Below, piece by piece: positions 49 through 56,745 of a stretch of DNA of 64,000 nucleotides; positions within the stretch are counted from its first letter, which is position 1; the number at the start of each line of letters is the position of its first letter. A program made the position numbers and the translations under genes. The stretch is from Brachyhypopomus gauderio (taxonomy: Eukaryota; Chordata; Actinopteri; Gymnotiformes; Hypopomidae): contig NC_135223.1 in the NCBI RefSeq assembly GCF_052324685.1, positions 15,338,654 through 15,402,653 of the forward strand, read 5' to 3'. The notes under the pieces were generated by a model. The model worked only from the letters and a program-made list of their open reading frames with translations, was not told the origin of the DNA and ran no database searches.

Positions 49-4485
<4,437 letters not shown>

Positions 4486-33154: not shown

Positions 33155-33231
<77 letters not shown>

Positions 33232-36200: not shown

Positions 36201-36873
36201 TCCAGGACCAGAGTTCATTACCCTGCCATAGAATGTTCTAGAACGTTCTCCTCAGTTCCCTCTTTTGGTCTCAAGAGATTTTCTTTTAAAGCTTTTACTT
36301 TGAACATTTTAAAGCAAGGATATCCCCACAAAGTGGCAAAGGTCCAAAACTATTCCCACCAAAGAGTTGACTTAAATGTTCAAGGCTCCCTATTAATTAT
36401 TCAAACAGGATATGTTTCTAATTAGTTTTAAGAGAATTCTGGACCTGACCTAGCACTTTCTGAGAGAAAACATAAGCAGCCGGCACTTGAGTGTTTGTGT
36501 TTTGGCAAGAAGGATGTGGCGTAGTGCCAACAGCTTAACATTTGGTTGTGTAAAATCCAGTCCTCACCCTTGACGGTATTCTTCAATGAACTGCAGGTGG
36601 GCGTCTGGGTAAGCTTTTCCATCATGACTCAGTGTGTTCCAGGTGAGTTATTAGCAATGCACAGCTACATCTATATATCTTAATAAAAGCTAGCATATAT
36701 TATATATGACTGTAATCCTCTTGATCTGGTCTCTTTTTGTTGCAGTTGTTCTCTTCACACTGATAGGATTTGTTCAGATGACGATATGGGCTAAAGGGAA
36801 ACACAGAGCCTACACCAGAGAGTTTAAGGATTACCCCGCCGTACGCATGCCCATCCTGCCCCTCGTGCTCTGA
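29088..36873 (+). CDS. tecr: very-long-chain trans-2,3-enoyl-CoA reductase (tecr family), complete
   Basis: Join 29088-29111 (or 32204-32212), 32559-32609, 32966-33017, 33260-33304, 33959-34062, 34523-34638, 34743-34848, 34986-35058, 35147-35190, 35617-35671, 35769-35857, 36597-36642, 36746-36873. All introns are GT-AG and every phase joins. The product is 310 residues with exon 1a or 305 with exon 1b; human TECR has 308. TECR performs the last step of the ER fatty-acid elongation cycle, reducing trans-2-enoyl-CoA with NADPH, and also saturates the sphingosine-derived chain. The N-terminal ubiquitin-like part ([17 protein letters not shown]) is followed by membrane segments and the steroid-5-alpha-reductase-like C-terminal domain ([24 protein letters not shown]). 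Discriminating positions favour TECR over the muscle paralogue TECRL ([25 protein letters not shown]). A teleost-specific paralogue remains possible. Confidence 0.93.
31960..32203 (+). promoter_or_regulatory. tecr: putative CpG-containing promoter of tecr exon 1b
   Basis: The stretch just upstream of ATG 32204 is unusually rich in CpG for this AT-rich window (cgcgagacc, taacgcgcc, ggcgctccg, accgtccgtgcg, acgtcgtggcggg) and free of repeats. This is promoter-like by composition only; no TATA box was assigned. Confidence 0.4.
32204..32212 (+). CDS. tecr: tecr candidate first coding exon 1b
   Basis: ATG AAG CAG followed by donor gtaggt at 32213, phase 0. It starts MK like the human TECR first exon (MKHYE) and sits at the end of the CpG-rich stretch, so it may be the main start. 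It is tiny, so context rather than coding signal supports it. Confidence 0.55.
32559..32609 (+). CDS. tecr: tecr exon 2
   Basis: Acceptor tttag ends at 32558 and donor gtaagc starts at 32610. The 17 codons read [17 protein letters not shown], close to human [17 protein letters not shown]. Confidence 0.95.
32966..33017 (+). CDS. tecr: tecr exon 3
   Basis: Acceptor tacag and donor gtaaga. It encodes [17 protein letters not shown] and the first base of His. Confidence 0.95.
33151..33237. repeat. (CT)n-(CA)n compound microsatellite
   Basis: About 32 CT then about 9 CA dinucleotides in the tecr intron, close to the exon 4 acceptor where it extends the polypyrimidine tract. Confidence 0.97.
33260..33304 (+). 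CDS. tecr: tecr exon 4
   Basis: Acceptor ccaag and donor gtgagt. It completes [15 protein letters not shown] plus one base. A (CT)n-(CA)n tract lies 22 bp upstream of the acceptor. Confidence 0.93.
33769..33781. repeat. poly-G tract
   Basis: A run of about 13 G in a tecr intron, a common site of sequencing error. Confidence 0.9.
33959..34062 (+). CDS. tecr: tecr exon 5
   Basis: Acceptor tttcag and donor gtaaga. It encodes [18 protein letters not shown] then [16 protein letters not shown], the end of the ubiquitin-like region. Confidence 0.95.
34523..34638 (+). CDS. tecr: tecr exon 6
   Basis: Acceptor tgcag and donor gtacgc. It encodes [19 protein letters not shown], the first membrane segment, and ends two bases into an Arg codon. 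Confidence 0.95.
34743..34848 (+). CDS. tecr: tecr exon 7
   Basis: Acceptor cacag and donor gtatgc. It encodes [19 protein letters not shown] then [16 protein letters not shown], which is strongly conserved in TECR. Confidence 0.95.
34986..35058 (+). CDS. tecr: tecr exon 8
   Basis: Acceptor cacag and donor gtgagt. It encodes [19 protein letters not shown] then LYTPP, a membrane segment. Confidence 0.95.
35147..35190 (+). CDS. tecr: tecr exon 9
   Basis: Acceptor tgcag and donor gtgagt. It encodes (S)[14 protein letters not shown], phase 0 at its 3' end. Confidence 0.92.
35617..35671 (+). CDS. tecr: tecr exon 10
   Basis: Acceptor tccag and donor gtaagc. It encodes [18 protein letters not shown] plus one base. 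Confidence 0.93.
35769..35857 (+). CDS. tecr: tecr exon 11
   Basis: Acceptor tagcag and donor gtcaga, a weak but valid GT. It encodes [19 protein letters not shown], the signature of the reductase domain. Confidence 0.94.
36597..36642 (+). CDS. tecr: tecr exon 12
   Basis: Acceptor ctgcag and donor gtgagt. It encodes [15 protein letters not shown] plus one base; the human counterpart is VGSWIGFAIMTQCLP. Confidence 0.94.
36746..36873 (+). CDS. tecr: tecr terminal exon 13
   Basis: Acceptor tgcag. It encodes [19 protein letters not shown] then [20 protein letters not shown] and LVL, with stop TGA at 36871-36873. The C-terminus matches the TECR family in length and in the basic NADPH-side motif. 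Confidence 0.96.
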
Positions 36874-37864: not shown

Positions 37865-38080
37865 TCAGAGCTCCAAACAGCAGAGAAGAACCTCAGGACT
37901 CTTTTCTCCTGGTTGTGGCCCAAACCCAGCGTGCGTCAGCCTCCCTCGGGGGATGCGGCAGGTTTCTGTCCAAAGCTTCTCCAGCAGAACTCGCAGGTGT
38001 GGCTCTGATGTTCCATCTGGCCCCTGCAGCCTGTGAGCAGAGCAGTAGAGACACAGCTGCTTGGCAGAGTTCACCAACAC
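37865..38080 (-). pseudogene. abca4: abca4-like last exon (frame open)
   Basis: Acceptor ttttcctccag is followed by VLVNSAKQ, equivalent to VFVNFAKQ at the start of the last ABCA4 exon, where the intron falls after LDQ. The frame stays open for 71 codons to TGA at 37865-37867. The tail is longer than, and unlike, known ABCA4 tails, so the stop is probably not ancestral. Confidence 0.65.
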
Positions 38081-38405
38081 CTGGAGGAAAACACATGTGA
38101 CAATAAAAGCAAACACTCCAGAACTCAGTGGTCGCCCTACACAACTCGCTGAACAGGGCTGCTTTTTCTGATTGATTAGTAAAGCCAAATTTTCAAAAAC
38201 CAAAATGGCTGACCTAGAGGACCCCACTAATCTGTCCCACGTTAGCACGTGTAAGTAAATCTTTCAGGAACCAGAACAGGTGCCAACATCAAATGACAGC
38301 AGGAAAGACAAGATGTGCCTCAGTGCCCTCCCTGTGACAGACTTTGGTCCTGTTCGGATCCAAATGGTTGGGACAGAATCCTGTGAAATCTTCCCCTCTG
38401 CTTAC

Positions 38406-38469
38406 AGCAGCATTCTGGGTAACAGACTAGTCCTCAGTACTGACAACTGTCCTTGATGGACAGGAGCAG
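38406..38469 (-). pseudogene. abca4: abca4-like penultimate exon with stops
   Basis: Acceptor gccaccag, then LLLSIKDS (family LLLSHKDS), then a frame change to TED, stop, SVTQNAA (family EEYSVTQTTLDQ), then donor gtaagc. Both relevant frames contain a stop, TGA or TAG. Confidence 0.7.
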
Positions 38470-38968
38470 CTGGTGGCAGAGACCGACCCCAGGGCTCCTA
38501 TCCTAAATCATAAGTCATTCTGGAGTCCCCCACAGGAATGAGGGGTTCTGTTCCAGTGCTGGTTCAACCGGCTCACGTACGTCACAGCCGCAAACTGACC
38601 ACACACAGCTGCTCTCTTCATCGGCTTTTGATTTTTTTTTTTTCTACAGTTCTGGTTGTGATGAGCCATTTTGTATGTTTGCATTTCTGTGTGAAAAGGC
38701 AATTCATTAGCACAAGACCCTACCATCTGGTGCAAATGGTTTCATTATCATTTGCAACAGATGGTTTGTTAATAATGATTTTTTTGTATTTGATATAATG
38801 GGTCTGTGTGGGACGGTGTGACACAAGCAGCAGGAGGGCGGGGCAGCCAGTGCTGATGAGGGCGGGGCAGGTCTTAGACCGTCCAGTCAGGATAGAGAGA
38901 ATAGATGTGTGAAAAGAGAGAACATGAAAGATGGAGTGATGCAACCGACATGAATGAGCTGTGAGTGT

Positions 38969-39036
38969 ATATGTGTGTGTGTGTGTGTGTGTGTATGTGC
39001 GTGCATGTGCATCTGTGCATTGTGTGTGTGTGTGTG

Positions 39037-39078
<42 letters not shown>
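38969..39078. repeat. interrupted (TG)n microsatellite
   Basis: About 110 bp of TG with a few interruptions (gtgcgtgcatgtgcatctgtgc). Confidence 0.95.
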
Positions 39079-39080
<2 letters not shown>

Positions 39081-39856
39081 AATGTCACTTATCTTGATCT
39101 CTGGAACTCCTCTGGAACTCCTCTATACCAACCAACCTGTTATCTACAGCATCAATATCAGAACAGAATGTTGTGTACAGCATCAATCCGAGGACAGTAC
39201 ACTGTGTCCTGTTACATATCCAGGATATTGGTCAGAATGTTGTAAGACACAAATAATGCATTGTATGCAGACAGGACCATGTAAAACATTGAAGCAGTCA
39301 CTGAAGAGGAAAAGGAGTTTCATTACGTTATTCTGCAGATATCCAAGATACATCCACATCCAAAAATATCCCCATGGTGACAATGGGAATAGGAATGTCC
39401 ATAAGGGGGCATGTTTACACTGTGGTAACAGTAACAAAATAGCAATGACTCTATCTTAAAATTTTATACTGGCCTATATATTTTATAAAAAAAAAAATGA
39501 ATTATGCTTGGAATATGTGTCATATACTCTCACAGCATCACAACCCGAGGGCATGATAGTCTGAATCATATGAAGCTATGAAACAGCAATCTACCAGACC
39601 AGGACAGTGTTAGGGCACACAGATGTGGGGATTATTATGGCATTAGGATGGGTGCATGGGTGTGGGTGTGTGTGCATGGTCAGGGTGAAGGTGATGTAGT
39701 GGGATGGGTGGAGATGGTGTTAAAGCATGTGGCCATAAAGAGAATGGAGTCTTAGGATATCTGGGCAGGTTTGGGATGGTGTTAAGGTCACACCTACCAC
39801 CATAATGGGCCGTAAAACATGCTATCCACAGCACACGGTGTGACTGTGCACTTTAC

Positions 39857-39905
39857 CTCTCCTGATGGCCACGTCCACACAGATCCTGCGTACCGCTAAG
39901 TATAT
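39857..39905 (-). pseudogene. abca4: abca4-like NBD2 entry exon remnant
   Basis: Acceptor tctcag, then IYLAVRRICVDVAIRRG and donor gtaaag. The family has KIYPG..SPAVDRLCVGVRPGE with an exon border after RPGE. It is shortened by about five residues. Confidence 0.55.
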
Positions 39906-40116
39906 CTGAGATATCATACTGCTATGAACTCGTATGGTGGACAGGGAGAAAACAATGGTTAGTGGCTTCATTACTTTTCACTTATACTGAATATATTAAG
40001 TGCAAATACCTTTTGTAAAACTGCCTTTTTTGCTTTCTTGCTGACCTGATTTAAAAGTTAACAGAAGTGAAGGAGACCAAAAGTCTCCTCCTATTGGGAG
40101 AGAGAGATGTGGCTAA

Positions 40117-40230
40117 CACACGCACACGCAGACACACTCACACGCACACGCAGACACACTCACACGCAGACACACTCACGCTCTCACACACACACACAAA
40201 CACACGCACACACACACGTGCGCATGCATG

Positions 40231-40281
<51 letters not shown>

Positions 40282-40300
40282 ACTCCACACACACACACAA
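40117..40300. repeat. (CA)n-rich tract
   Basis: About 180 bp of CA/CACG repeats; a further (TG)n lies at 40642-40682. Confidence 0.95.
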
Positions 40301-40646
40301 CTGCTGAGGTTTTAACCTCAGACTACAGAATTCAATTAAGCAGTTACAGTGCATGAATTAGGGCATGTATGCAGCATACAGTACAGGCTCTGTTCATGAA
40401 TTAATATTACATAAGCTGTGACATTAAAATACTTTTACTTGTGAACTATCATGTAGTTTTTATAAATATAAAACAGCATTAAGTATAAAATGTAGAAATA
40501 TAATACAATTGTACTATATGTAGTGTGGGATACTGAGTCAGAGACTGATATAATAACCTCGATGTGTCACACTGTAAAGTATTATGTGTGAACTGAGGAT
40601 GTATTGATTTGTGTTAGGGTTGCATGTAACTGAAGATTAGTATGTG

Positions 40647-40684
<38 letters not shown>

Positions 40685-40699
40685 CTCACTAGTGCTCAC

Positions 40700-40792
40700 C
40701 AGGAAGCAATCCTGGATGAGGATTTTGAGGGTGAAGTAGACAAATCCCTCCACAGCAATAAACGTCATGTTTCCCCCACCAAATCCCAGTTA
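40700..40792 (-). pseudogene. abca4: abca4-like membrane exon with frameshift
   Basis: NWDLVG is read in one frame and GNMTFIAVEGFVYFTLKILI in the next, followed by donor gtgagc at 40699. The family is [20 protein letters not shown]. The match across the frameshift is residue for residue, which makes this one of the clearest disabling lesions. Confidence 0.8.
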
Positions 40793-40808
40793 AAAAGCTC
40801 CACCTCAT

Positions 40809-41033
40809 AGATCTATCACACCATAAATCTTTCACCCTGTAGGTCTCTCACAAAATAGATCTCACGCCATAAATATCTCACACTGTAGATCTCTCACATT
40901 GTAAATATCTCACACTTAATATATCTCACACAGTAGATCTCTAACACCATAGAAGTCTCACACCATTAATACGTCACACCGTAGAATTCTCACACTGCAA
41001 ATATCTCACACAACAAATCTCACACTGTAGATC
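40809..41033. repeat. 16-17-bp minisatellite, left part
   Basis: Degenerate tctcacactgtagatc / tctcacaccataaata units, split from the right part (41700-41892) by a LINE insertion. Confidence 0.9.
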
Positions 41034-41699
41034 AAATCAAATCAAATCAAAGTTTATTTGTATAGCGCTTTTCACAACACATGTTGTCACAAAGCGCTTT
41101 ACAGGATTTAAAAGGTTAACAATACTATGGGTCCAGAACCCTAATGAGCAAGCCAAAGGCGACAGTGGCGAGGAAAAACTCCCTATGATGGTGGGGATTA
41201 GGAAGAAACCTCGGGAGAACCAAGACTCAAAAGGGAACCCATCCTCCATTGGGCGGCCCGTTAACACACAAATTACACGAAATACAGACAAATACACAAG
41301 TCACAAACAAATCACACAATCAGACTAAGTAAAGGTAAAAATGAAAGTTCTGGGTTTTGATATTGTCACTGTAAATGTCTGTTAATGAACACCAGGCTTT
41401 CATTCCATGTCGGAGCAGCGATGCTGGTATTGTAGGCTCCGACTGCAATGTTACTCTCCAGGTGAACCTCGGAGAAAAGATACGAGATGTAGTAACTATG
41501 TAACAGATTAATCAAAGGCCAAACTAAACAGATGAGTCTTTAATCGAGTTTTAAACAATGAGACTGTGTCTGAGTCCCGAATAGAGGCAGGAAGATTATT
41601 CCACAATTGTGGAGCTTTAAAAGAAAAGGCTCTTCCACCTGCTGTGATCTTTTTGATCCTAGGAACAGTTAATAACCCTGCGTCCTGAGAGCGAAGTGA
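41034..41699 (-). mobile_element. 5'-truncated L2/CR1-like LINE, inserted into a minisatellite
   Basis: The minus strand encodes the C-terminal end of a LINE polyprotein: GRAFSFKAPQLWNNLPASIR then TVSLFKTRLKTHLFSLAF, stop at about 41508. The 3' UTR contains the gcgctttt...acaaagcgctt hairpin common to fish elements, and the element ends in a (TTTGA)n tail (atcaaatcaaatcaaatcaa on plus). Only about 0.67 kb remains. Confidence 0.85.
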
Positions 41700-41892
41700 T
41701 CTCACACTGTAGATCTCCCACACTGTAAATATCTCACACTGTAGATCTCCCACACTGTAAATATCTCACACTGTAGATCTCTCACACTGTAAATATCTCA
41801 CACTGTAAATATCTCACACTGTAAATATCTCACACTGTAGATCTCCCACACTGTAGTTCTCTCACACTGTACTTCTCTCACACTGTACTTCT
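41700..41892. repeat. 16-17-bp minisatellite, right part
   Basis: The ctcacactgtagatctccca unit continues on the far side of the LINE insertion. Confidence 0.93.
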
Positions 41893-43228
41893 CTGCTTTC
41901 ATGCCATTATCCATCAACCTCATGAAAGAGTTTACAGTGAATTTTAGCAAAGGTTTCTGGGTACACCATTTCCTCAGTGTATACAACACAGATTCCACTA
42001 ATTACGGAAGAGAAAGACATGTAGGCTGTACTGGGGAGGCACAGATAAAAGGAAGATCCACATTACCACAGGGCTCTGGAATACAAACCACACTCCCAGG
42101 CCCCTAATGAGCATCCCTAGGATTTGAGAGGACTTTTGAAAGGCCAAGTCCAGGAGTTGTTTAAGAATACAGCAAATCTCAGAGGGACTGTCTAGACCGT
42201 CCAGGGGTATACCAGGGATGGGGCTACGGTGTCTATCAACAGCCAGAGGCAGAGAGAGAGATAGAGAGAGAAAGAGTTAGGAGGAGAGGGTAGAGTGACT
42301 CACTAAAGCGTGCGCAGACATCTGTCACGGCTCACGGCTGTGTCAATTAGCCCCCGGCCTGGAAGTGAACAGGGCGTTTTTCAGAACCCTTATGATTATA
42401 CTTAAACAGAATCCAGAGAGATAAACAGACAGAGAGAGAGGGGGAATAAGGCAGGGAGATTATAGTGGGACTGAATGTATTATTACTCTTTCAAGAGGGA
42501 AACTACGATCTGTGTGATTTGGCCTAGGTCTGGGTTCTGGAGGAATCACCACTGAGAGGTGCTCTATCACACTCACACTGTCAAACAGGGCCAGGATGGA
42601 AGTGACTCCAATATGCTGTGTTCAGTATTAGTCTTCCAACAAAACATGTAGCTAGTGTAGCTTTTCTCCAAAACCCTTTAAACACTTTATTCTCCCAACC
42701 TCAGACTGTCACATCCCAAGAGCTGAATCAAAACCATGTGAACTTTGCTCAAAATGAAACTTTAATCAAAACACAGACATGCATTAAGTATATAAACTTT
42801 GCTGCCTTCTTGACACTAGAGCTTTCAAAGCAATAATGCTCTGAATTGCAAACATTAACTGAATATACTGATAAACAGAACAATACACCTTTATAAAGTA
42901 AACTGTGAATGTAATCACAACAGTGTCAGCATAAGAGCTCCAATTCTGTTCAGCAGAGGTACATTATTGCACATGTATTTTTTTCACGACAAGAGTTTTC
43001 ATGTTATACACACACAAGCACTCACAAAAACACACAAAAGTTTAACATTTGCAGTCAAGCACAAAACACAAAACTTCCAAAGAAACAGGATGTTTCAGAG
43101 GTTCTTCATCTGGTTTGCAAGCAAAGTGCTTCTGAATTAGTAGTAGAAGAAACCAGTTTGTATTTGAAAGGTTTGCTTATATTATATATAGTTTGTTTTG
43201 TTTTTTACCCCTTTCATATGGATGTCAG
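41893..43228. other. former abca4-like intron, nothing identified
   Basis: Ordinary AT-rich sequence with short GA runs at 42250-42280; no exon match found. Confidence 0.4.
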
Positions 43229-43411
43229 TCATACACTACGGTCATAGAGTTTGAAGGTAGCAGTCGTAGAGGTTGACGACAGAGTGACATGTCCGTGACA
43301 GGGACCCAAAGCGAAGCAGCTATTGATGTTTCTCATACTCTTTGCAAGGTTAAAGCCTGCCTCAGCGTAGATAATTCCTGCAGTGCCCATCGACTTCAGC
43401 ACAAATGCTCT
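43229..43411 (-). pseudogene. abca4: probable abca4-like membrane exon remnant
   Basis: A strong acceptor (gcttttcttttcag) is followed by a 60-codon open frame, AFVLKSMGTAGIIYAEAGF onward, to TGA at 43229-43231. Position and pattern (G-A-MMYPASF, then ATFVLELF-like ATFKLYD) fit the ABCA segment before the last membrane helices. A neighbouring frame gives ASLWVPVTDMSLC, like FDVPSTAYVALSC. The assignment is by position more than similarity; it could be an unrelated terminal exon. Confidence 0.4.
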
Positions 43412-43861
43412 CTGAAAAGAAAAGCAATTTCACTGCCCGTACATAAAATAGTGGCATGGCTGTGTATACTATTACACATTAATTCACGAGGGCAGTAATT
43501 TCTGTATATTGGAGCGGCAGCTTTTTCTTGCCTCTTTCTTTCGCACTGTTGTGCTGGAACAGAACTCAATAAAGCCATTTTATACTCACTCAGCTGTGCT
43601 GGAGGTCTCAGGGAAGGGTGTGCACCCCGAGTGCCTTGGAAAACTGATGTCCTTTAGTTTTTATCTTTAGATTTCCTTTATATTAACAGCGCTGTTGCCA
43701 CAGACCACAGCAATACAGCGTACTTCTTCCACCACTGGCAGGTGTGGCATCACCAAAGTTCTCTCTATGATGAGGTGATGCAAGGGTACAAATAATTTTC
43801 CACACAAAAATTTTATTCCACATAGAGAAACAAAGCAGGACTCTACAGTGCAGCAAAGTGA

Positions 43862-43881
43862 CCCCCCCCCCCCCCCCCCCC
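43862..43881. repeat. poly-C tract
   Basis: About 20 C in a row. Confidence 0.95.
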
Positions 43882-44761
43882 TTTGAATGACTGTACTGAC
43901 TATGAATACAGATGAGAATGGACAGGCTCAATAATTGGTGCTCTGATGTCATCTGCAATTTCATCATCCCTTTTATGCATGAATTCACTTTGGCAAAACT
44001 GCTCCCTCATTGGTTGATGCGACAATTAGAATGTGTTGTAAATTCAGCTGGTTTGTGTTTAGACAATCACAGCTGTGTGCCGTTTTGTGCCCTGAATAAT
44101 ACAGGGATTCAGTGATTGAGTGGCAGTGCTTTCTGTAAGGCATCAGGTTAAGTGTGCTTTGGGAACTGAAAAGAGTTTTTTGCATATATGTGTATTTCAG
44201 GACTAGCAGTTGAGGTAAAGCTTTGAATAACTGGAGAATCCATTTTAATGTGTTAACAATTGAAAAAAAAAACATTTATTTCAATGTCACACAATATCAC
44301 AAAAGGGCACAACCAACTACAAAATGTAATTCAGGATGAAGACTACTTTAAATAAAAAAATTTAATGAATTATTTAAAAAGTTAATTAGCTTTAATCCCT
44401 TTTCTCTAGAAATATTTGTTTCCTTGCTAACAGTTGCCCACTTCAGGTTTCACTTTCCTGACAGTGCCCCACAGTGGTCCTCAGTGGCGGCGTTCCTGCT
44501 CTCTTTCTGAGTTAATGTGATTTGGGGGGGGCACGGGACATACAAACATCCACTCTGAAGAACAAACATGCGGTCAAAAGCAGACACTGACAAATTACTC
44601 CAATCCCAGTTGGACTTCCAGTCTGTTTCACTCTCACCTATTCGTCTTTCACCAGCCGCTGCAACAGCAAGCTTGTGTGACGGGCCTAAACACACGATGA
44701 GAGGCCCTTCAGAGGCAAGCGCATGAGCACCTGACCTCTCTCTAATAAGACGGTCCACTGA

Positions 44762-45049
44762 CTGCCCTCACCCATAGAGCTGCCCTCACCCACAGAACTG
44801 CCCTCACCCACAGAACTGCCCTCACCCATAGAGCTGCCCTCACCCACAGAACTGCCCTCACCCAAAGAGCTGCCCTCACCCACAGAACTGCCCTCACCCA
44901 TAGAGCTGCCCTCACCTATAGAGCTGCCCTCACCCACAGAGCTGCCCTCACCCATAGAGCTGCCCTCACCCACAGAATTGCCCTCACCCACAGAGCTGCC
45001 CTCACCCAGAGAGCTACCCTCACCCACAGAGCTGCCCTCTCTACAGAGC
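44762..45049. repeat. 18-bp minisatellite, about 16 copies
   Basis: ctgccctcacccayagag units. The minus strand reads as an open [12 protein letters not shown] repeat only because 18 is a multiple of three. Confidence 0.95.
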
Positions 45050-45660
45050 TGACCTTTATCCAGAGCTGCCCTCACCTGGAGAGACAGGAAATAAACACTC
45101 ACAATTAAAGCCAAAAGCTGATGACTGATGTGAACAGTGTGTGTAAATGATATTTAACACCGCAGGATAAAACAGTGGATGACATCAGCAACAGAAAAAA
45201 TTCCATACATACGTCCAGCAGTGCGTGGCCTCAACAACACCCTGTTCAGTGTTTCTCTCTAATGTACTAGTGAAGAAAGCACAACAGAAAGGTTTTCCAG
45301 AAAGGCAAGTGAATTAACAAAACCACACATTACCAGTGAAGCTTAAATGACAGATATCCATGAAGACAGATGGCAGTTAGCTAAGGGAATACATTACCAC
45401 ACAGCCCAACTTTGAGGAGTTGTTGTGATTCTGTTGCGCTCTTGTTAACTACGTTAAGCCCCCAGGTAAATCCTAAACTGACTATCTAACCCAGAAATCC
45501 TGCTTTATGCTGCACCATTTGGAATTAAACCCACATTGTCAAAAAGAACAATTAAGAGAAATGTTTGTAATGCCAACTGGGCAGTTTGAGGCAATTATGT
45601 TTAACTGTATCAGTCTAGGGCTCTGACAATAAATCAGCTCAAAGACATGTACATACTAAC

Positions 45661-45822
45661 CTCTGACAGCTGCTCCTTAGTAAAACTAAGAGAATCACTG
45701 TTGTGTTGCCACACTGATGCCACACTGATAGGGCTGGCATAAGCAGGAAGACTGGGTCTGAGGATGGCATTGCTCAGCACATTCAGGAAGACCACAAAGG
45801 TGTGAAAGACACCAATTAGACA
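45661..45822 (-). pseudogene. abca4: abca4-like second extracellular domain exon
   Basis: After an aattag acceptor, the frame reads GVFHTFVVFLNVLSNAILRP, then SLP, and ends SFTKEQLSEV before donor gttagt. The family is [20 protein letters not shown] ... LNLTKEQLSEI. No stop lies in this exon, and it is the best preserved block with certain identity. Confidence 0.8.
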
Positions 45823-47253
45823 CTAATTATTCAAAAGCTCTTTATGAATAATACATTTAATAAATAACAAATTGACTGTGATGAAGCATAGGCATTGAAT
45901 ATGTATGTATTAAAAACTTGTATTTAACATTGTATTTAGTTTCCATGTATTTCAGAAATGTAGCAAAGTCCTTCACTAGCAAGTTTGACGTTTTTTTTTC
46001 CCTATAAGCAATATATGAGCAGTATCACTAAATAAATTATGATTTGTTTGAATTTAAAAGGAAAATTAGCATGTAGCATTCACATACAAAACTACACATG
46101 GTAGACAAAATCATCATACATACTTTACATTTAAACCTAAATAATTAAAGTTGAACATAATCACGAAAGAAAACAGGCAGGAGAATAAACACGTGTTCAT
46201 TAGTCCTAATAGCAGTCAGGCAGTCTGTCTACCATGTGCAGTAGCTAACACCGTTAGCATCCGTACATGGCAAGCGGCCTGTGCTCAGATTTACAGACCC
46301 CTTGGTTGCAAAGACTGCAGAAATATCGACTGTATCAAGAGGGGGACATCTTGACGTTCTTGACAGCATGTCAGAATATCTGCTGCAAACATCTCAGCAT
46401 CATGGTGGATCCATAATGGAATGGACAGCCATATCGCCGGAATCATTACCCATCAGGTGTGATGGCTGCTCTGAAGGGTCGTAAAGCAGTGGCAGAAGAG
46501 AGCGGTTTTCCAGAAACACCCTCTAGTGCACACGCAGCTCACTCACTTTCTTCTCATTTTACCAAACGATAATGCACAACGGCCTCCTAAGTCATCAGGT
46601 CTAAACGCCCACGAGGTATTTTGCCGCACCGTGTAGATTTCCAAAACCGTTTCCATCATACACAGGGCCCATTACATAAAATTTGTGTATGGCATCATTC
46701 CAAAAATGTTAAAGCTTGCCCTGAGATAGCCCCACTCCTTATGAAGTCTGTCAAATGTATATGTTGCTATGTATTTCTGTTAGTATGCTCACTGCCATAC
46801 AGGCTCATTAGCTGTCGTTAGCACAGAGATCTTAATTCAGATACTGGTAGCGGCTATATTAGCAGAAACTGCTATTGGTTCCTGTTATGTGAAGTAGTCA
46901 CTCTAATTGAGCCTAATAGTCTTGGATGGCTTGAGGACACACTCCAGGAACTGCCCCCCAGGTGCCTCTGTACCTACAGCAAACTGCCGGTGAGCTCTCA
47001 CCCACAAGCACTGCACACAATGTCCACCAGAGGGAGATGTTGTACCATCCACATAAAACATTGTAGAATATAACACCACTGTTTATTCAGCTAGGACGTA
47101 TTCTTTAAACTACAAATAAAAAAGTTAACAAGTTACTTCACATCAACAGTAGAGCTGTCGATATAAATACCAGAGAAGATATATACTGGTATGGAACGAG
47201 TCTCATTTATCACATTTCAAACATAAGAGAAAAAAGCAGTAAACATGTCTCAC
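45823..47253. other. former abca4-like intron, nothing identified
   Basis: No exon match. Several short open frames without family resemblance. Confidence 0.4.
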
Positions 47254-47389
47254 CTCCATCTAAAGCAGCTACTTGAGCCTTCTGGGTAGCCACCGCAACA
47301 CCATGATGCCTGTGCTTGGTCCACTCAGGACTGGCTAGCATGGTGGTGAGGGTGGGGTCTACTGGGGACACCTCCCACTCAGGGTGTTG
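47254..47389 (-). pseudogene. abca4: abca4-like second extracellular domain exon
   Basis: Acceptor catgtag, then QHPEWEVSPVDPTLTTMLAS and PEWTKHR, and donor gtgaga. The family is [20 protein letters not shown] and TQVNPSP. Similarity fades in the second half, suggesting a frameshift near the CRCST segment. Confidence 0.65.
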
Positions 47390-47531
47390 CTACATGTGTA
47401 TTCTGTGAAAGGGCAGTGATAGGGTTAATCAAGGTTCATCCTAGATTAATCTAAAACACACACACACACACACTTGAATAAACAGGAACATACAAGGGTA
47501 AGTTTCTCATCACACACTTAGGTCCACCCAG

Positions 47532-47566
<35 letters not shown>

Positions 47567-47664
47567 AACATACATTCTATACATTCATACTCATTACTAT
47601 GAGTGAGAGGAAGAGCCAATCAGAGTGCGAGGATGACAGAGGGAGACTGGTCAGAGCAGCTCAC

Positions 47665-47862
47665 CTGCGTGTCTCTCCAACCATCCTAAAGAACACCCTG
47701 AGCGTCAGAATGAGGCTGGAGAGGGAGGCCAAAGAGCCGGCAGAGACCCACACACACCAGGCAGCAGAAGCTAAGGGGCCGCAAAGCTCAGTAAACAAAC
47801 CAACGCAGATGGCAGCCAGTAGAAACCAGCAGTTTTTCATGAGCACTGTAAAACAGCAGTAA
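47665..47862 (-). pseudogene. possible abca4-like regulatory-domain exon
   Basis: Cleanly bounded by acceptor ctgttttacag and donor gtgagc, with one open frame (LMKNCWFLLAAICVGLFTEL ... LRVFFRMVGETRR). It fits the expected place for LLPN...LFRELEETLA ... LEEIFLKVTE, but identity is low. It could be an unrelated exon. Confidence 0.35.
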
Positions 47863-48360
47863 AATAACTCTTCTCCAAACAAGATTCAAGTGTATTTAAA
47901 ACACTACTTGACTACATTACCCATTACCAAAACAATAAAACTGCTTTTGCTTCATTTTATATGTTACCAATGTCAGTTCTGTTCTTTGATACATATCAGT
48001 ACATCAGCTACTTTGACAGCATATTATAAAAAGTGCTATTAAAATAAAGTTGAACTAAAATCTGTAGAGTATGACAGAACAAACCAGGAAGTGCTCAGCC
48101 TATAGCATGAAGGCTGCAGCAAGTCCAGTGTCATAACACAGTCACCGTCATGTCAGCCTGGGGGCTGAAAGAACTCTCTGCTGTAACTTTGAAGAATATC
48201 TGCAAGATGTATTATTATGATGTATGTATTATTATGTATTATGATGATGTTATCCACATGAGTGCCAGGGTCCAGTGAGGTGTAGCACACCCAGCAGAGG
48301 CTGATACCTGTGGGTACTTCTTCCAGTTCCCTGAAGAAGCTGGCAGGAAACCCCAGCTGG

Positions 48361-48745
48361 CTAACAGACACCCCAGCTCAGACACCCCCAGCTCTGACAC
48401 CCCAGCTCAGACACCCCCAGCTCTGACACCCCCAGCTCTGACACCCCCAGCTCAGACACCCCCAGCTCTGACACCCCCAGCTCAGACACCCCCAGCTCAG
48501 ACACCCCCAGCTCTGACACCCCCAGCTCAGACACCCCCAGCTCAGACACCCCCAGCTCTGACACCCCAGCTCTGACACCCCAGCTCAGACACCCCCAGCT
48601 CTGACACCCCAGCTGGCTAACAGACACCCAGACACCCCAGCTCTGACACCCCAGCTGGCTAACAGACACCCAGACACCCCAGCTCAGACACCCCCAGCTC
48701 AGACACCCCAGCTCAGACACCCCCAGCTCAGACACCCCCAGCTCC
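48361..48745. repeat. 16-17-bp minisatellite
   Basis: cagctcagacaccccc / cagctctgacacccc units, about 24 copies, some with a ggctaacagacacccag insert. Confidence 0.95.
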
Positions 48746-49573
48746 TACCCTATGAGTCAACAGTTTTTCTGATAATAAAGAAATGGCTAATGCTAAGGAT
48801 CCAGGATACTGTTTTGTGACAGTATAAAAAACACCTTCATGAACCTTTAATGGGACCTGTATTATTTCTTTCAGCATTATATTAAATGATTACATTTATT
48901 AAATGATTTACATTGCATTTATTACATTACTGACATTTGTTATATATCATACAATACGCATCAGGAATGTCTGAGACTAGTCAGATGTTCACCGGGCAAA
49001 CGTAAAATCTTTATGATTCCTTAAAGGGCTCATTACAGGCAATTACAACCAATATATTGTGCAGTCCTAGTTCATGCTAATATTAATTACTTGCTATAGC
49101 ACTATGCTAGTTTCCATTCACAGTTACCATGGCAACAGTTTTGATAGGACTATCTCTTTAAAGGTAAATGAAAGCAAGCAGGAAACTATTAACAATGATC
49201 CTATATGGAAAGTGTTAACACTGAAGTCATATGACTAAGTACTCAATTATCATGGATTCACGTATCTTACTAAATAAATACTGATTTATCAGTGTGCCGT
49301 ACTGTCCGCCCATCGGCCATTGGCTTTGTCCCACTGGACTCGCTCTCTATATACTTTGGGCAGAGGGAACAGCTGCCTGCATCTATAAATCAGAGAATTG
49401 TAAATATAAGAGAAAAAACATCTCCAGGAGCTGGTGTGTCAGGAGCCCAGACAGGGAGTCCAACCCTGGGGAACCGCCTGCCTCTTCAGGCACCTAGAGG
49501 AGATACTCATAGATATTGGCCTCAGATGTTTCAGAGAGTGTTTTCAGAGACACATCAGTGGAGTGACATTTAC

Positions 49574-49746
49574 GCGCACATACACACACACACACATACG
49601 CACACACACACACACACACTCCTGGTAGAGCAGGCAGATCAAGCCACTACAGCCACCAAGGTATGGAGGACTTCCACAAGTTCGATTCCCAGAGCAGCAG
49701 ACATTCTGTTACATATGAAAGTAGGTCTGGACAAGAGAATCTACCC

Positions 49747-49785
<39 letters not shown>

Positions 49786-49790
49786 AAGTA
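49574..49790. repeat. two (CA)n tracts
   Basis: CA runs at about 49574-49619 and 49748-49790, flanking a possible SINE head. Confidence 0.9.
49620..49700 (+). mobile_element. possible tRNA-derived SINE head
   Basis: tggtagagcaggcag resembles a pol III A box and, about 45 bp later, gttcgattcccagag resembles a B box. It does not fold convincingly as a complete tRNA, so an old SINE head is more likely than a gene. Confidence 0.35.
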
Positions 49791-50249
49791 GAGTGTTAGC
49801 AGTCTGAAACCTTGGCTAATGACCATGAAGGAATGGTTTCAGGGGCTTCTGCCAGTTACTTTGAAGTGAAACCCAGCACTCTAAAGAGTGTCTTCCCCTG
49901 GGATGTCACTCCAGGTCTAAGCCGATGATTCTTCTTTAAAAGAAAGCAGGATAAGAATATCCTGAATAAAAGCACAAGAATCCCCAGGCCAGGCATCCAG
50001 TGAGAAGGTCTTAGTGTCTCTTTTAGGCCAGAGGACCTCAGAATGCAGCTTCAGCTCCAACCTGGTCCCTGTTGTGATCTATATCACTTTCTCAAATGAC
50101 ACATGGTCTGATCACACAGCCAATCAGTACTACACCCACAGACACACATGTACACACAGACACACCAAAGGCAGCGTAAGCACCTCTCCTAGTGCACGGT
50201 GGATTGTGTTAAACACGACAGACCGGTGTGAGGTGGAAGTCCCCAGCAG

Positions 50250-50322
50250 AACCCACCAGCCACATCGTCACTGAGCAGGTCTGCTTTCTTCATGTTGTGT
50301 GTGGAAAGGATCACTGTACAGT
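50250..50322 (-). pseudogene. abca4: abca4-like NBD1 H-loop exon remnant
   Basis: TVILSTHNMKKADLLSDDVA is read on the minus strand; the family is [20 protein letters not shown]. The H-loop His is kept (STH), but the DEAD-like acidic pair is KK and GDR is SDD. Similarity stops abruptly after DVA. Confidence 0.75.
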
Positions 50323-51394
50323 CTGCACGCGTCCACACACACACACACACACACATACACACACACACACTCAAACACACACACATTACATGGACATTCG
50401 AGAAAAACACATAACCAATAAACACCTGACTGTACTGCACACATGTACAGTAGATTTCAAATAGCTTTCAGAGCAACAATGATAAGGTCTCAAATTTTTT
50501 TCTCTACCGACAGCTCAAACCAGTGATGAGGAAGGTCCCACACTCAGTTTCAATAAATCCCATCACAGCTATTCCTGCCCCTGTAACAGTGTGTGTGTGT
50601 GTGTGTGTGTGTATGGAGTGTCTGGAGTGTGGGTCTGCTCCAGACTTAGGCCCACTTTAGTACCACCCTCAAGAACCATGGCAACAGACAGGTTCAACAG
50701 ACATGGTGCCACACTGGTAAAGCACCAGTTCAGGAAACTGTTCTAAAATGCTTCTTGACAGTGAGGTGAAGATTCCTCAGCCTGCCATGATCACTCAGCT
50801 CCCCAAAGTGAAAAGCCTGATGCAGTATAATAGCAGCATTTTTAGAGCTTGAAAATTTCAAGAAAACCTTTAGTTCCTATAAGGTCAGAGGTACATGTCA
50901 TATTAAGTCTAATCATGAATTTGAACACAGGACATCTGGTCAAGTGGTTTTGCTGAATCACCATCATAACAAATATTAAATTTCCAGTTTCCAGTGATTC
51001 CAGGTTCAAGCACGTATAGGCCCTAGGGGCCTGAATGGCCCATGGGGCTGTTTTGAGTAAATTATTTACCTTTGACTAGAATGCATGAACTGTACATTTT
51101 AGTGTCAGTCCTATGTAACAGGCCTATTAGGAACTTAGGGATATGTAAAGTAAAAGTAGTCCCAGGGTTATTAAGTTTACTTCCTTTTATTAGCATTTTT
51201 ATCACATACCTAAAAAGGAACTTCCAAAAGCTTCTTAATTAAGATATATGCAGATAAATATTGCTCATCAAACCTTGTGTAATTAGTCTGCCTTATTTAT
51301 GACTTCTTATCATCAGAACTTAAAACCCCCTTTTCCCATCACCAATACAAACATCTGGATACACAGACTTGGCAGAGGATGTGTGTGTGGGGGG

Positions 51395-51475
51395 GCTTTG
51401 CCGGTAGAGCTGACACACTACAGCTCCTGCTGAACCTCAGCCAGCTTCTCACCCTTCAGGCATGAGCAGACCAGG
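51395..51475 (-). pseudogene. possible abca4-like fragment after NBD1
   Basis: GEKLAEVQQEL followed by a stop, read on the minus strand near 51410-51450, resembles EAKLVECIGQEL of the ABCA4 linker and lies in the right order between the H-loop and second extracellular domain only if local rearrangement is allowed. Weak. Confidence 0.25.
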
Positions 51476-52283
51476 GTGGGCCCTGCCTCCAGAGCTGGGC
51501 GGGGCCAAACACGGCAGTCAGAGAGTGTCTCTCCTGCAGACAACACTCAGGAACAGGGGGCTTCTGCTGCCAGATGTGTCACTGTCATCACACTATCTCT
51601 GTGTCCTCATAAGTTTATCTTTTATCATGATAATCTGCCACCGTGACACCGTGTCTCTGCTCCATATCACTGAATGTGTGGCGTCCCAATTCACTAGATT
51701 AGATCAAAAGAAAAACACACCAAAGCCCCACATATGACATAATCTAATTGGTTTTTCTGAGTTGAACCTTTTACAGCTCAGGGCAGGTGGGATGCTGATG
51801 AGTGCACAGGGTGCATATGAATCACACTGTGTGCAAAAACAGCAAGCAAAGCGTGTTTCTCCCACTGGCAATAATTAGGAAAGGGAGCCTCAGTGTGCAG
51901 GAGAGGAGGTCCAGTGGCTGAACCCGTCTCGTGCTGTGAGGGCAGCACCTACTGAAACACAAAGAGTATCAGAACACAGAACAGTTACTGCTTTAAACAC
52001 CCCCACCAGATCCAGGCATCCCTACTGCAAACCACCCCAACAGTGTTCCTGAACCGTCTCTAGATGGCAACAACAGAAACGTGTTTTTTGGATATGAAAG
52101 CCTATTATACATTTGTAAAGGTGCATTATTGCCAGTTGTTACATCATTTATTCCTAATTGCTCAGTGAGCTAAATCAAAACAAGTTAAGGGAAAGAAATT
52201 ACTGTGAATATCAGTGGGACGTTTTCTATTTTGCTAACTGATGTGAGTAACCTCAAGCAGCCTACAAAGTATTATTAGACACC

Positions 52284-52646
52284 ACATACACTGTGTTGGA
52301 GACACCCCATACCCTGTGTTGGAGACACCCAATTCACTGTGTTGGAGACACCCAATTCACTGTGTTGGAGACACCCAATTCACTGTGTTGGAGACACCCC
52401 ATTCACTGTGTTGGAGACACCCCATACCCTGTGTTGGAGAGACCCCATTCACTGTGTTGGAGACACCCCATTCACTGTGTTGGAGACACCCCATTCACTG
52501 TGTTCCCCATTCACTGTGTTGGAGACACCCCATTCACTGTGTTGGAGACACCACATACACTGTGTTGGAGACACCACATACACTGTGTTGGAGACACCAC
52601 ATACACTGTGTTGGAGACACCCCATATACTGTGTTGGAGACATTCC
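52284..52646. repeat. 23-bp minisatellite, about 16 copies
   Basis: cattcactgtgttggagacaccc units, with a shortened copy at about 52501-52508. Because 23 is not a multiple of three, all three plus frames read through copies. Confidence 0.95.
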
Positions 52647-52990
52647 ATGTTCTGTACTGGTATTTCCCTGTGCACTGTGGATTTTGTGTTTTCTGTAACA
52701 CCTGATTCTGCTTATTAAGGGCCTCATTATCACTCCGTGAGCTGAGTCAGGTAGATTAGTGCAGGGAAAACACCTCTAATCAACAGACTGTTAACTGAAG
52801 TCTTCAGGGATGAATCTAAGTGTCCAGGCTATTAAACCCCATGGAATAAGGACTTGTAATGGTCCGGTCTGTTTTCATACTACACGTAGGTGGGTCTACA
52901 GACCGATGTGTGTACAGCACAGGCTCAGGGATCGGCATTGTTTTTTATCTGCACAATCTCCCATACAGATTTTCTGAGTTTGGACTTTTG

Positions 52991-54402
52991 CTGCAGTGGT
53001 ATGAGAATACACAACTCCTGCAGTGGTATGAGAATACACAGCTCCTGCAGTGGTATGAGAATACACAGCTCCTGCAGTGGTATGAGAATACACAGCTCCT
53101 GCAGTGGTATGAGAATACACAGCTCCTGCAGTGGTATGAGAATACACAGCTCCTGCAGTGGTATGAGAATACACAGCTCCTGCAGTGGTATGAGAATACA
53201 CAGCTCCTGCAGTGGTATGAGAATACACAGCTCCTGCAGTGGTATGAGAATACACAACTCCTGCAGTGGTATGAGAATACACAGCTCCTGCAGTGGTATG
53301 AGAATACACAGCTCTTGCAGTGGTATGAGAATACACAACTCCTGCAGTGGTATGAGAATACACAACTCCTGCAGTGGTATGAGAATACACAACTCCTGCA
53401 GTGGTATGAGAATACACAAGTCCTGCAGTGGTATGAGAATACACAAGTCCTGCAGTGGTATGAGAATACACAGCTCCTGCAGTGGTATGAGAATACACAA
53501 CTCCTGCAGTGGTATGAGAATACACAGCTCCTGCAGTGGTATGAGAATACACAGCTCCTGCAGTGGTATGAGAATACACAACTCCTGCAGTGGTATGAGA
53601 ATACACAACTCCTGCAGTGGTATGAGAATACACAACTCCTGCAGTGGTATGAGAATACACAACTCCTGCAGTGGTATGAGAATACACAACTCCTGCAGTG
53701 GTATGAGAATACACAGCTCCTGCAGTGGTATGAGAATACACAACTCCTGCAGTGGTATGAGAATACACAACTCCTGCAGTGGTATGAGAATACACAACTC
53801 CTGCAGTGGTATGAGAATACACAGCTCCTGCAGTGGTATGAGAATACACAACTCCTGCAGTGGTATGAGAATACACAGCTCCTGCAGTGGTATGAGAATA
53901 CACAACTCCTGCAGTGGTATGAGAATACACAGCTCCTGCAGTGGTATGAGAATACACAACTCCTGCAGTGGTATGAGAATACACAGCTCCTGCAGTGGTA
54001 TGAGAATACACAGCTCCTGCAGTGGTATGAGAATACACAACTCCTGCAGTGGTATGAGAATACACAGCTCCTGCAGTGATATGAGAATACACAACTCCTG
54101 CAGTGGTATGAGAATACACAACTCCTGCAGTGGTATGAGAATACACAGCTCCTGCAGTGGTATGAGAATACACAACTCCTGCAGTGGTATGAGAATACAC
54201 AACTCCTGCAGTGGTATGAGAATACACAGCTCCTGCAGTGGTATGAGAATACACAGCTCCTGCAGTGGTATGAGAATACACAACTCCTGCAGTGGTATGA
54301 GAATACACAGCTCCTGCAGTGATATGAGAATACACAACTCCTGCAGTGGTATGAGAATACACAACTCCTGCAGTGGTATGAGAATACACAGCTCCTGCAG
54401 TG
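52991..54402. repeat. 27-bp satellite-like array, about 52 copies
   Basis: The unit is ctgcagtggtatgagaatac then acaactc or acagctc, about 1.41 kb in all. Copies differ almost only at one A/G site; two copies read acaagtc and two tgatatg. It lies in the intron just after the NBD1 Walker A remnant. The unit is 27 bp and lacks stops in several frames on both strands, which creates apparent proteins over 400 residues that are artefacts. Confidence 0.98.
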
Positions 54403-54668
54403 AATGTTGGGAGATGTTCCGCTCCCTTCAGCGTAAAGCACAGTGTGCCATGCGATGTGCCAGTTGACACTCTGTACACAGAACAGGCCAACAGACATCA
54501 TGTGTTGTGGGGGGAATCCACCCTCTAGCAGGCGGGTATCTATTGTACTAGACAAGAAACCTACATCATGTAATAAAAACCCTTACAATCTGTTTAGCCC
54601 TGTATACTCTCAGGACAGGTCAGGGTGGTCAGACTGTGTTTCCTCACTTGTATTACTATGTAACATAC

Positions 54669-54762
54669 CAGGGCACCTGCTCTATTATGGGCCAGGAAGG
54701 TTCTGACGTGGCCCTCCTTGTAGATGACCTGTCCACAGCAGGCCTGGAGCAGCCACCTGACC
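54669..54762 (-). pseudogene. abca4: abca4-like NBD1 Walker A exon, frameshifted
   Basis: Acceptor gttatag, then CSRPAVDR in one frame and VIYKEGHVRTFLAHNRAGAL in the next, then donor gtatgt. The family is [20 protein letters not shown] followed by FLGHNGAGKTTT. The Walker A is reduced to AHNRAGAL: the catalytic Lys and following Thr residues are gone and a glycine is Arg. No ATP binding would be possible. Confidence 0.85.
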
Positions 54763-54794
54763 CTATAACACAGTGAACCACTCACAGGGCCAAC

Positions 54795-54935
54795 ACATCA
54801 CACCACACCACACCACACAACACCACACCCCACCACACAACACCACACCCCACCACACTACACCACACCACAACACCACACCACACAACACCCCACCCCA
54901 CCCCACCCCACCACACCACAACACCACACCACAAC
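54795..54935. repeat. CAC/CACAC low-complexity tract
   Basis: Irregular caccacacc repeats, about 140 bp. Confidence 0.95.
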
Positions 54936-55286
54936 GTACAGTATCAGCTACTTATCAGTTTAAATCGGTTTTTTTATCTTACCTACATATTTCAGTAGGT
55001 TACTTAATTATGTAATATTAAATAACTTATTAATACAGAAATATTATGAAGGAAACAAAGGGCACAAATCAGAGGAAATACATTCCAATGAACAAATTGG
55101 TTCAACACATCCATACACAATATGAACTTTTAGCACAAACACTATCAATAAAAATAACAATCTCTTAGAAGTCCAACATACCAGGCCATCAGCTCCCCAC
55201 ACTGGTGTGTGTGTATGTAAAATCCATTAGAAGGAAAGTGTCATTTGATTGATCATGTTCACAAATTTGGATCACTCGTTCTGTCA

Positions 55287-55544
55287 TTATAAGACACAAC
55301 TGAAGACACAGATCCTGTCAGCTTTCTCCAGCAGGACGTCTGCAAGGTCCCGTATAGCTGTGGTCAACATGTGTTTGCTGGTGGGCAAAAGGCCGAGGAA
55401 GAGGATCCTGCTGTTGGTGGCTAGGCTGGCCTTATTGAGGAAGGCAAGGATTAGGAAGCACTGTGTGATGGTCAGGAGAAAAAGGTAGAGGATGATGATG
55501 ATGAAGAGGATGACTGGATCACTGTAGTTCAGCACGTTGTCTTG
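55287..55544 (-). pseudogene. abca4: abca4-like membrane exon
   Basis: Acceptor tcttag, then LNYSDPVILFIIIILYLFLL, TITQCFLILAFLNKASLA, then a degraded LTTAIRDLADVLLEKA. The family is LHYSDPFILFLFLLAF ... [20 protein letters not shown]. The open frame runs 82 codons, but the ACSGVIYFTLYLP segment is lost. Confidence 0.8.
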
Positions 55545-55889
55545 CTAAGAAAAACTATTTGAACAAAATGGCAATGCTGTACTTCATTCTGAAAATGGAT
55601 AACTCAATGTGATTCACAGTGAGGACCACTAGAGGTCAGTATGATACAATATTCTAGCAAACCCAAACGAAAAACCCACAAAATATTAGAGGTTCATCAC
55701 TTCTCAGAAAAGTACGTGCCACTGTGACCACCCAAACACATGACTAGAACTACTGAAACATACCTATTACCATCAGCTTATTGTCAAACCTTTTGGGAAT
55801 CAAGTGACCGGTAGCTCTTCAAAAATACAGTATGACATTCTTGACTGCTAAAAGTAACACAGCAGAGTTACTATGTCCTTCTCAAGCCA

Positions 55890-56099
55890 CCGTAGCTGAT
55901 ACCTCTCATAATGATGGCTGTGTGTAGGATAGTAGTGGTACCCATCATGACGAAGCTGTTGAAGAACCAGTCACACCTTGTAGGAGACACCCATGGGCTT
56001 CAGGGTCTCCTTCAGGCCCATCTCCTGCTCTGCACTGTCATGGAAACAGAGCACACCCATGCCACCATGAAGATAGGAAAACACCGTCTGAGGGTCCCC
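55890..56099 (-). pseudogene. abca4: abca4-like membrane exon with two frame changes
   Basis: Acceptor cattcag, then RCFPIFMVAWVCSVSMTV in one frame, EQEMGLKETLKPMGVS in a second, and WFFNSFVMMGTTTILHTAII in a third. The family is RCFPIFMVLAWIYSVSMTV, EKELRLKETLKNQGVS, and [20 protein letters not shown]. Confidence 0.85.
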
Positions 56100-56116
56100 C
56101 TGAATGTGCATGCACA

Positions 56117-56117
<1 letters not shown>

Positions 56118-56172
<55 letters not shown>
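56118..56172. repeat. (CA)n microsatellite
   Basis: About 27 CA dinucleotides, 19 bp upstream (on minus) of the exon acceptor at 56100. Confidence 0.97.
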
Positions 56173-56174
<2 letters not shown>

Positions 56175-56308
56175 TACAGATACGGCTGTGGCATTGCTAA
56201 GGAGTGAATCCGAGTTCCATGTTTTGAACACTTAACCCAACAAATGACCTATGCCACCTTCAAAGGGACCACCCTGCTGTTAGACTGTAAGACCAACAGA
56301 TCATTCTC

Positions 56309-56430
56309 CTAGCAAGGGTATTGTATCTGCTGCAAGTAGACCTCTAGGGGGCGCTGCCTGCCTGTGAGGGTCTTTATGATCACCTGCTCCACTATGTCCT
56401 GCAGGTATATCTCTCCCCGCACTTAGCAGA
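56309..56430 (-). pseudogene. abca4: abca4-like extracellular domain exon ending in stop
   Basis: IYLQDIVEQVIIKTLTGRQR then PLEVYLQQIQYPC and an in-frame TAG at 56309-56311. The family is AYLQDMVEQGITR ... GIYLQQMPYPCFVDD. Confidence 0.85.
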
Positions 56431-56544
56431 GATCATGAACGGTGTCACTCCGAGGAACAGAGTACCAGTGCCTGACTGTGGGTTGATAGATAAGGCAGAA
56501 TGGATGTCTGAAGTATGGAAAACCAGTAGGTCCAAAAAGGCATT

Positions 56545-56745
56545 ATGACAAATACTCAGATCTGAATTCATGGGTGCGCTCCACTGTGTCAATGTGCATG
56601 CGGACCTGAAACTAGACATGTGGTACAACTGTACAGGAAATACATCCACAAAGACCAGGCCCAGCCAGAACTTTCTCTTGACTAAAAGTTCTAGGGCCCA
56701 ATGGATCTCGTCTGAAAGACCCATGAACTTATCCAGAAGTAGGTA
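56545..56745 (-). pseudogene. abca4: abca4-like extracellular domain exon, stop and frameshift
   Basis: Acceptor ctttttgcag, then YLLLDKFMGLSDE, KRKFWLGLVFVDVFP, then a frame change to PHV, stop, FQVRMHIDTVERTHEFRSE. The family is [44 protein letters not shown]. The conserved Lys codon after PHV is a TAG. Confidence 0.88.

Follow-up and report, generated by a model that had tools for sequence, protein, structure and literature searches.

Does a run of short, minus-strand exon-like scraps on contig C13 of Brachyhypopomus gauderio, a gymnotiform, weakly electric fish with an assembly of 796.5 Mb, represent a decayed abca4 gene, and if so, does the species retain another copy? The window, by which we mean the whole 64,000-nucleotide stretch analyzed (C13:15338654-15402653), had been described in a sequence-only reading as holding a full-length, in-place decayed abca4-like gene that was a unitary or duplicate-copy pseudogene and not a processed one. 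We consider it very likely that the locus is a non-processed abca4 pseudogene that decayed in place, and that it belongs to a duplicated arhgap29-abca4-tecr block, most likely a product of the teleost genome duplication, whose counterpart on contig C19 carries an intact abca4.

A tblastn comparison with human ABCA4 (query confirmed over residues 52-1165) gave a colinear minus-strand chain of 9 pieces scoring 307 bits, against 49 bits for the best of 40 dinucleotide shuffles, 30 bits on the plus strand and 45 bits with the reversed sequence. The tblastn check that the sequence-only reading had called for thus does find colinear matches, but human ABCA1 matched this result with 310 bits over 10 pieces, so that the check indicates an ABCA gene without saying which. 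Frameshift-tolerant spliced alignment guided by human ABCA4 scored 1024 versus 318 on the other strand (region 37000-68500), and 1213 versus 295 when the intact ABCA4 from C19 was the guide. As had been proposed, the ABCA4-like exon remnants are colinear on the minus strand, running from 56.75 kb to 38.06 kb of the window (Table 1). At its upper end, 56745, the range originally assigned to the gene coincides with the start of exon 12, and one further remnant lies beyond the window.

Table 1. Remnants of abca4 exons and neighboring genes; exon numbers follow human ABCA4.
Feature	Position	Strand	Observation
abca4 remnant locus	C13:15.376-15.405 Mb	minus strand of window	
exon 3 remnant	just past window end, L009:820-961		both splice edges exact; open throughout
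exon 12 remnant	56556..56745	-	acceptor and donor in same place and phase as C19; 1 frameshift, 1 stop
exon 13 remnant	56298..56471	-	both splice sites kept; 2 in-frame stops
exon 14 remnant	55907..56104	-	2 frameshifts; both splice sites lost
exon 15 remnant	55320..55544	-	acceptor kept, donor lost; open throughout
first Walker A region remnant	54675..54757	-	motif not intact; weak block, under other-strand maximum
exons 22 and 23 remnants, first nucleotide-binding domain	50258..50694	-	scores of 65 and 75 against an other-strand maximum of 74
exons 25 and 26 remnants	48161..48344	-	weak blocks; placed by order and borders
exon 30 remnant	47309..47400	-	1 frameshift
exons 34 (weak) and 35 remnants	45652..45976	-	exon 35 open throughout
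exon 39 remnant	42293..42389	-	weak block; 1 frameshift
exon 40 remnant	40694..40809	-	1 frameshift; score 81 with human guide, 59 with own-copy guide
exon 43/44 remnant	39164..39277	-	weak block; 1 stop
exon 45 remnant	38825..38884	-	weak block
exon 48 remnant	38406..38496	-	weak block with 1 frameshift and 1 stop; donor displaced by two codons, phase kept
exon 49 remnant	38057..38080	-	VLVNSAKQ versus VFVNFAKQ; acceptor retained, weak block; final remnant that can be placed with some confidence
tecr-like gene (very-long-chain enoyl-CoA reductase)	32559..36873	+	intact neighbor; blocks without frameshift or stop; first 5 codons insecure
olfactomedin-domain exon, read as olfm3	3763..4485	+	open throughout

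The strength of the signal differs from exon to exon. With the human guide the alignment consists of 46 blocks, 29 of them scoring at least 30; the other strand yields 39 blocks, and 26 of these reach the same score. Because the best of the latter scores 76, single weak blocks mean little. Only exons 3, 12, 13, 14, 15, 35 and 40 rise above the other-strand maximum with the human guide; when the own copy serves as guide, the other strand peaks at 74, so that exon 30 (89) and, barely, exon 23 (75) are added and exon 40 (59) is lost from the set. The remaining exon assignments rest on order and borders. Exons 4-11 have no secure trace in the spliced alignment, and a Pfam search with two remnant pieces returned no family with an E value of 1 or less. 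The description of a decayed copy stands, but "full-length" was an overstatement: of the gene's 50 exons, many are unrecognizable, and most cannot be identified one by one.

Assignment to a subfamily comes from 86 positions that are fixed in ABCA4 and differ in human ABCA1, at which the remnant has the ABCA4 residue in 57 cases, that of ABCA1 in 7 and neither in 22, in an alignment guided by ABCA4. The remnant row itself was aligned with the B. gauderio ABCA4 as guide and so leans towards ABCA4 and towards the C19 copy. ABCA1 was dropped as the identity of the gene on these diagnostic positions, although its tblastn chain is as strong, and the remnant is assigned to the ABCA4 subfamily, closer to ABCA4 than to ABCA1.

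Retained introns bear on how the copy arose. Twelve splice edges, picked from the 36 edges of 18 blocks and belonging to exons 3, 12, 13, 14, 15, 48 and 49, were compared with the intact copy on C19. Eight are exact (both edges of exons 3, 12 and 13 and the acceptors of exons 15 and 49), one is in phase and two codons off (the donor of exon 48, a weak block) and three are lost (both edges of exon 14 and the donor of exon 15). The 29 blocks with scores of at least 30 have 58 edges, 21 of which lie no more than 3 residues from a human exon border, whereas 2000 shifted sets gave a mean of 7.5 and a maximum of 18. Given that introns are kept at their parental places, the abca4 remnant is not processed, just as the sequence-only reading had maintained, and a processed copy is ruled out. 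The accompanying statement that most splice borders are still recognizable holds for nine of the 12 edges compared, counting the one that is two codons off, and cannot be extended to the whole gene.

Parental introns are accompanied by a disabled frame, and the locus thus has two features of a non-processed pseudogene. We counted 9 frameshifts and 6 stops in the 29 blocks, with weak blocks included. Assembly error is an unlikely source of these lesions because the blocks of tecr, in the same window, contain neither a frameshift nor a stop. A diverged gene that still works, or a member of another ABCA subfamily, would be in keeping with exons 3, 15 and 35 being open throughout and with the equally strong chain obtained for human ABCA1. 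However, we give such a gene almost no credence, in view of the stops and frameshifts in exons 12-14, a Walker A motif that is not intact (in a weak block), the preference for ABCA4 at the diagnostic positions, and the fact that, among 340 residues that do not vary across gar and 29 teleost rows, the remnant keeps 204 and has not kept 136. The frameshifts, stops and unrecognizable exons leave the C13 abca4 without a readable gene.

Searching the same genome with ABCA4 residues 52-885 returned 53 matches (54 of 69 candidates scored), two of which are the C13 remnant itself, and the most ABCA4-like set lies on C19, a contig of 16216160 bases. Several C19 matches carry one flagged stop, located where the ends of the matches extend into introns, and the spliced blocks have none. 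Spliced alignment covers human residues 6-2270 without a stop or frameshift in any block, apart from a misplaced five-residue first block that falls beyond an arhgap29-like exon, and the gene is annotated as ABCA4 in the public B. gauderio record (P0241, 2297 residues). Further matches on C5, C1, C12, C184, C98, C3 and C2 were provisionally taken for other ABCA genes. As the genome search covered residues 52-885, an additional partial copy may exist. The ABCA-family gene on C98 has many exons, with approximately 26-78% identity to human ABCA4 and ABCA1 alike.

The intact second abca4 that the sequence-only reading had suggested looking for is therefore present on C19, and of its two options, unitary or duplicate-copy, the duplicate survives. 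That the species lost its sole ABCA4 would accord with the position of the remnant between arhgap29-like and tecr-like genes, where abca4 is expected, but this reading is refuted by the C19 ABCA4, free of stops and frameshifts, and retains next to no probability.

Neighboring genes are shared between the two loci. Upstream of the C13 remnant, on the same strand, is a RhoGAP-domain gene, which we read as arhgap29, a gene that stands beside abca4 in human. Its 3' exon gave 2 matches (12 candidates scored), one on C13 and one on C19, each next to the ABCA4 locus; the two exons are 51% identical, and the C19 exon directly precedes abca4 and shares its strand, as on C13. Just downstream of the C19 abca4, a tecr-like relative (C19:7659961-7663296) is arranged tail to tail with it as in the window, and its exons are 51-75% identical to those on C13. 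C6, C729 and C761 carry other tecr-like relatives. The protein of the tecr-like gene in the window is 99% identical to one in a B. gauderio record. Gar tecr and abca4 proteins each come from a 47769348-base contig, which suggests that the tecr-abca4 linkage is old. Placement of the remnant in its original position near tecr and olfm3, as first described, is borne out by the tecr-like and olfactomedin-domain genes of the window, the latter presumably the olfm3 paralogue. Abca4 thus holds a conserved place beside arhgap29, and the blocks are paired, each abca4 copy being flanked by an arhgap29-like and a tecr-like gene. Given the same neighbors in the same orientation, the C13 remnant very likely belongs to one half of a block that was duplicated long ago. 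The intact C19 ABCA4, a retinal-specific phospholipid-transporting ATPase, and the C13 remnant are alike in exon order, splice places and neighboring genes, but the C13 copy is broken and many of its exons can no longer be recognized.

Paired blocks of this kind are what a whole-genome duplication leaves, and therefore the teleost genome duplication is the most likely source. Under this proposal, the arhgap29-abca4-tecr block would have been doubled, most likely in that event; in the B. gauderio lineage the C13 abca4 would have lost its open frame and then drifted, and the C19 abca4 would have stayed intact, the C13 copy presumably being lost because the other copy suffices.

The age of the remnant was approached through fish ABCA4 rows, of which 45 were chosen from the best 120 of 1567 and 3 near-duplicates dropped, leaving 42 in addition to two tetrapods; for the tree, 12 more were dropped, giving 33 rows including the remnant. 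Among 646 residues placed, 342 are identical to the C19 copy. Identity of the remnant to the 42 fish rows ranges from 49.5 to 52.9%, with its own species (52.0%) and electric eel (50.0%) no closer than the others, and is 46.5 and 47.1% to the two tetrapod rows. At 11 positions changed in gymnotiforms the remnant is ancestral at 7, derived at 1 and other at 3, and where the B. gauderio copy alone has changed (27 positions) it is ancestral at 12, derived at 5 and other at 10. The otophysan test offered 0 sites; the teleost test offered 3, of which 2 are derived and 1 other. Retention of 204 of the 340 invariant residues would correspond, by a crude conversion of our own, to approximately 0.22 neutral changes per site, a lower bound because only recognizable exons enter the calculation.

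These data also bear on whether the remnant derives from a recent, gymnotiform-specific abca4 duplicate and not from the teleost genome duplication. In the tree the remnant sits on a very long branch (4.9), and its grouping with the gymnotiform copies is not rejected (p-AU 0.224); in addition, the 5 of 27 B. gauderio-only states that it shares are in line with a recent origin. However, the gymnotiform-changed positions, 7 ancestral against 1 derived, and the diverged arhgap29-like and tecr-like genes flanking both copies argue for an old block duplication, and we regard a recent duplicate as improbable. Together, identities, ancestral states and neighbors favor an old duplication as the probable origin of the C13 copy.

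Which of the two copies was lost can be approached by comparison with zebrafish. The zebrafish ABCA4 row is on a 63.6 Mb contig, which fits chromosome 2 (abca4b) better than chromosome 24, the latter being approximately 42 Mb. In a tree with no nameable abca4a-type row, it clusters with the C19 copy. Given the fit to abca4b and this grouping, we infer that the lost C13 copy is the counterpart of zebrafish abca4a and the retained C19 copy that of abca4b. According to one study, zebrafish keeps both abca4a, on chromosome 24, and abca4b, on chromosome 2; abca4a mutants show Abca4 staining similar to wild type, with most Abca4 protein coming from abca4b, and have longer green and red cone outer segments at one year (PMC11744051). 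In B. gauderio, by contrast, one of the two, presumably abca4a, is a pseudogene. Table 2 of another study lists one ABCA4 for medaka and two each for zebrafish and carp (PMC4825979). Medaka, with its one listed copy, thus resembles B. gauderio, and no remnant is described for medaka in the available part of PMC4825979.

Loss of one abca4 copy looks like a known kind of event, ordinary spare-gene loss after an ancient genome doubling. Our literature search for abca4 loss in electric fishes, made on titles and the starts of abstracts and mostly among papers outside subscription, returned nothing. South American electric fishes have been described as long-wavelength-cone monochromats. Gymnotiform electric fishes are also nocturnal as a group (PMC5307702). 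The C13 abca4 loss may be linked to a reduction of cone vision in these fishes. That the loss is common to South American electric fishes, as part of a shrinkage of the cone system, is a doubtful proposition; if true, the remnant would date the relaxation of cone function. The sequence-only reading had spoken of the loss of a retinal lipid flippase copy; a loss of retinal function is unsupported, as one intact copy remains on C19 and ABCA4 function is not shown to be lost in B. gauderio. What the locus adds is the loss of a retinal duplicate gene in a gymnotiform, with the remnant still in place between intact neighbors, in a species that a gene list alone would score simply as single-copy for abca4.

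An intron of the abca4 remnant contains a minisatellite (window 52991-54402) composed of 52 copies of a 27-base unit, 97% matching, and the open frames that run through it, at 409 to 545 codons long, could be mistaken for genes. Further minisatellites are listed below. Between positions 17812 and 18562 of the window, both strands carry open frames that overlap one another and are 112-156 codons long.

Further minisatellites in the window and additional tecr-like genes in the B. gauderio genome
Feature	Location	Position
Minisatellite	window	44762-45076
Minisatellite	window	48365-48744
Minisatellite	window	52277-52642
tecr-like gene	contig C6	26119100
tecr-like gene	contig C729	8530
tecr-like gene	contig C761	2844

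The tecr-like matches on C729 and C761 yield almost identical alignment rows, and the two loci may be one stretch that was assembled twice. On C13, the contig of the window, two ABC-transporter matches of equal score (9812698 and 9833761) lie ~21 kb apart, perhaps reflecting a tandem duplication. A rhodopsin-like gene on contig C4 (22525142-22526182), a near-complete match within a single open frame with 76% to human, is one of 118 opsin- or receptor-like matches in this genome.
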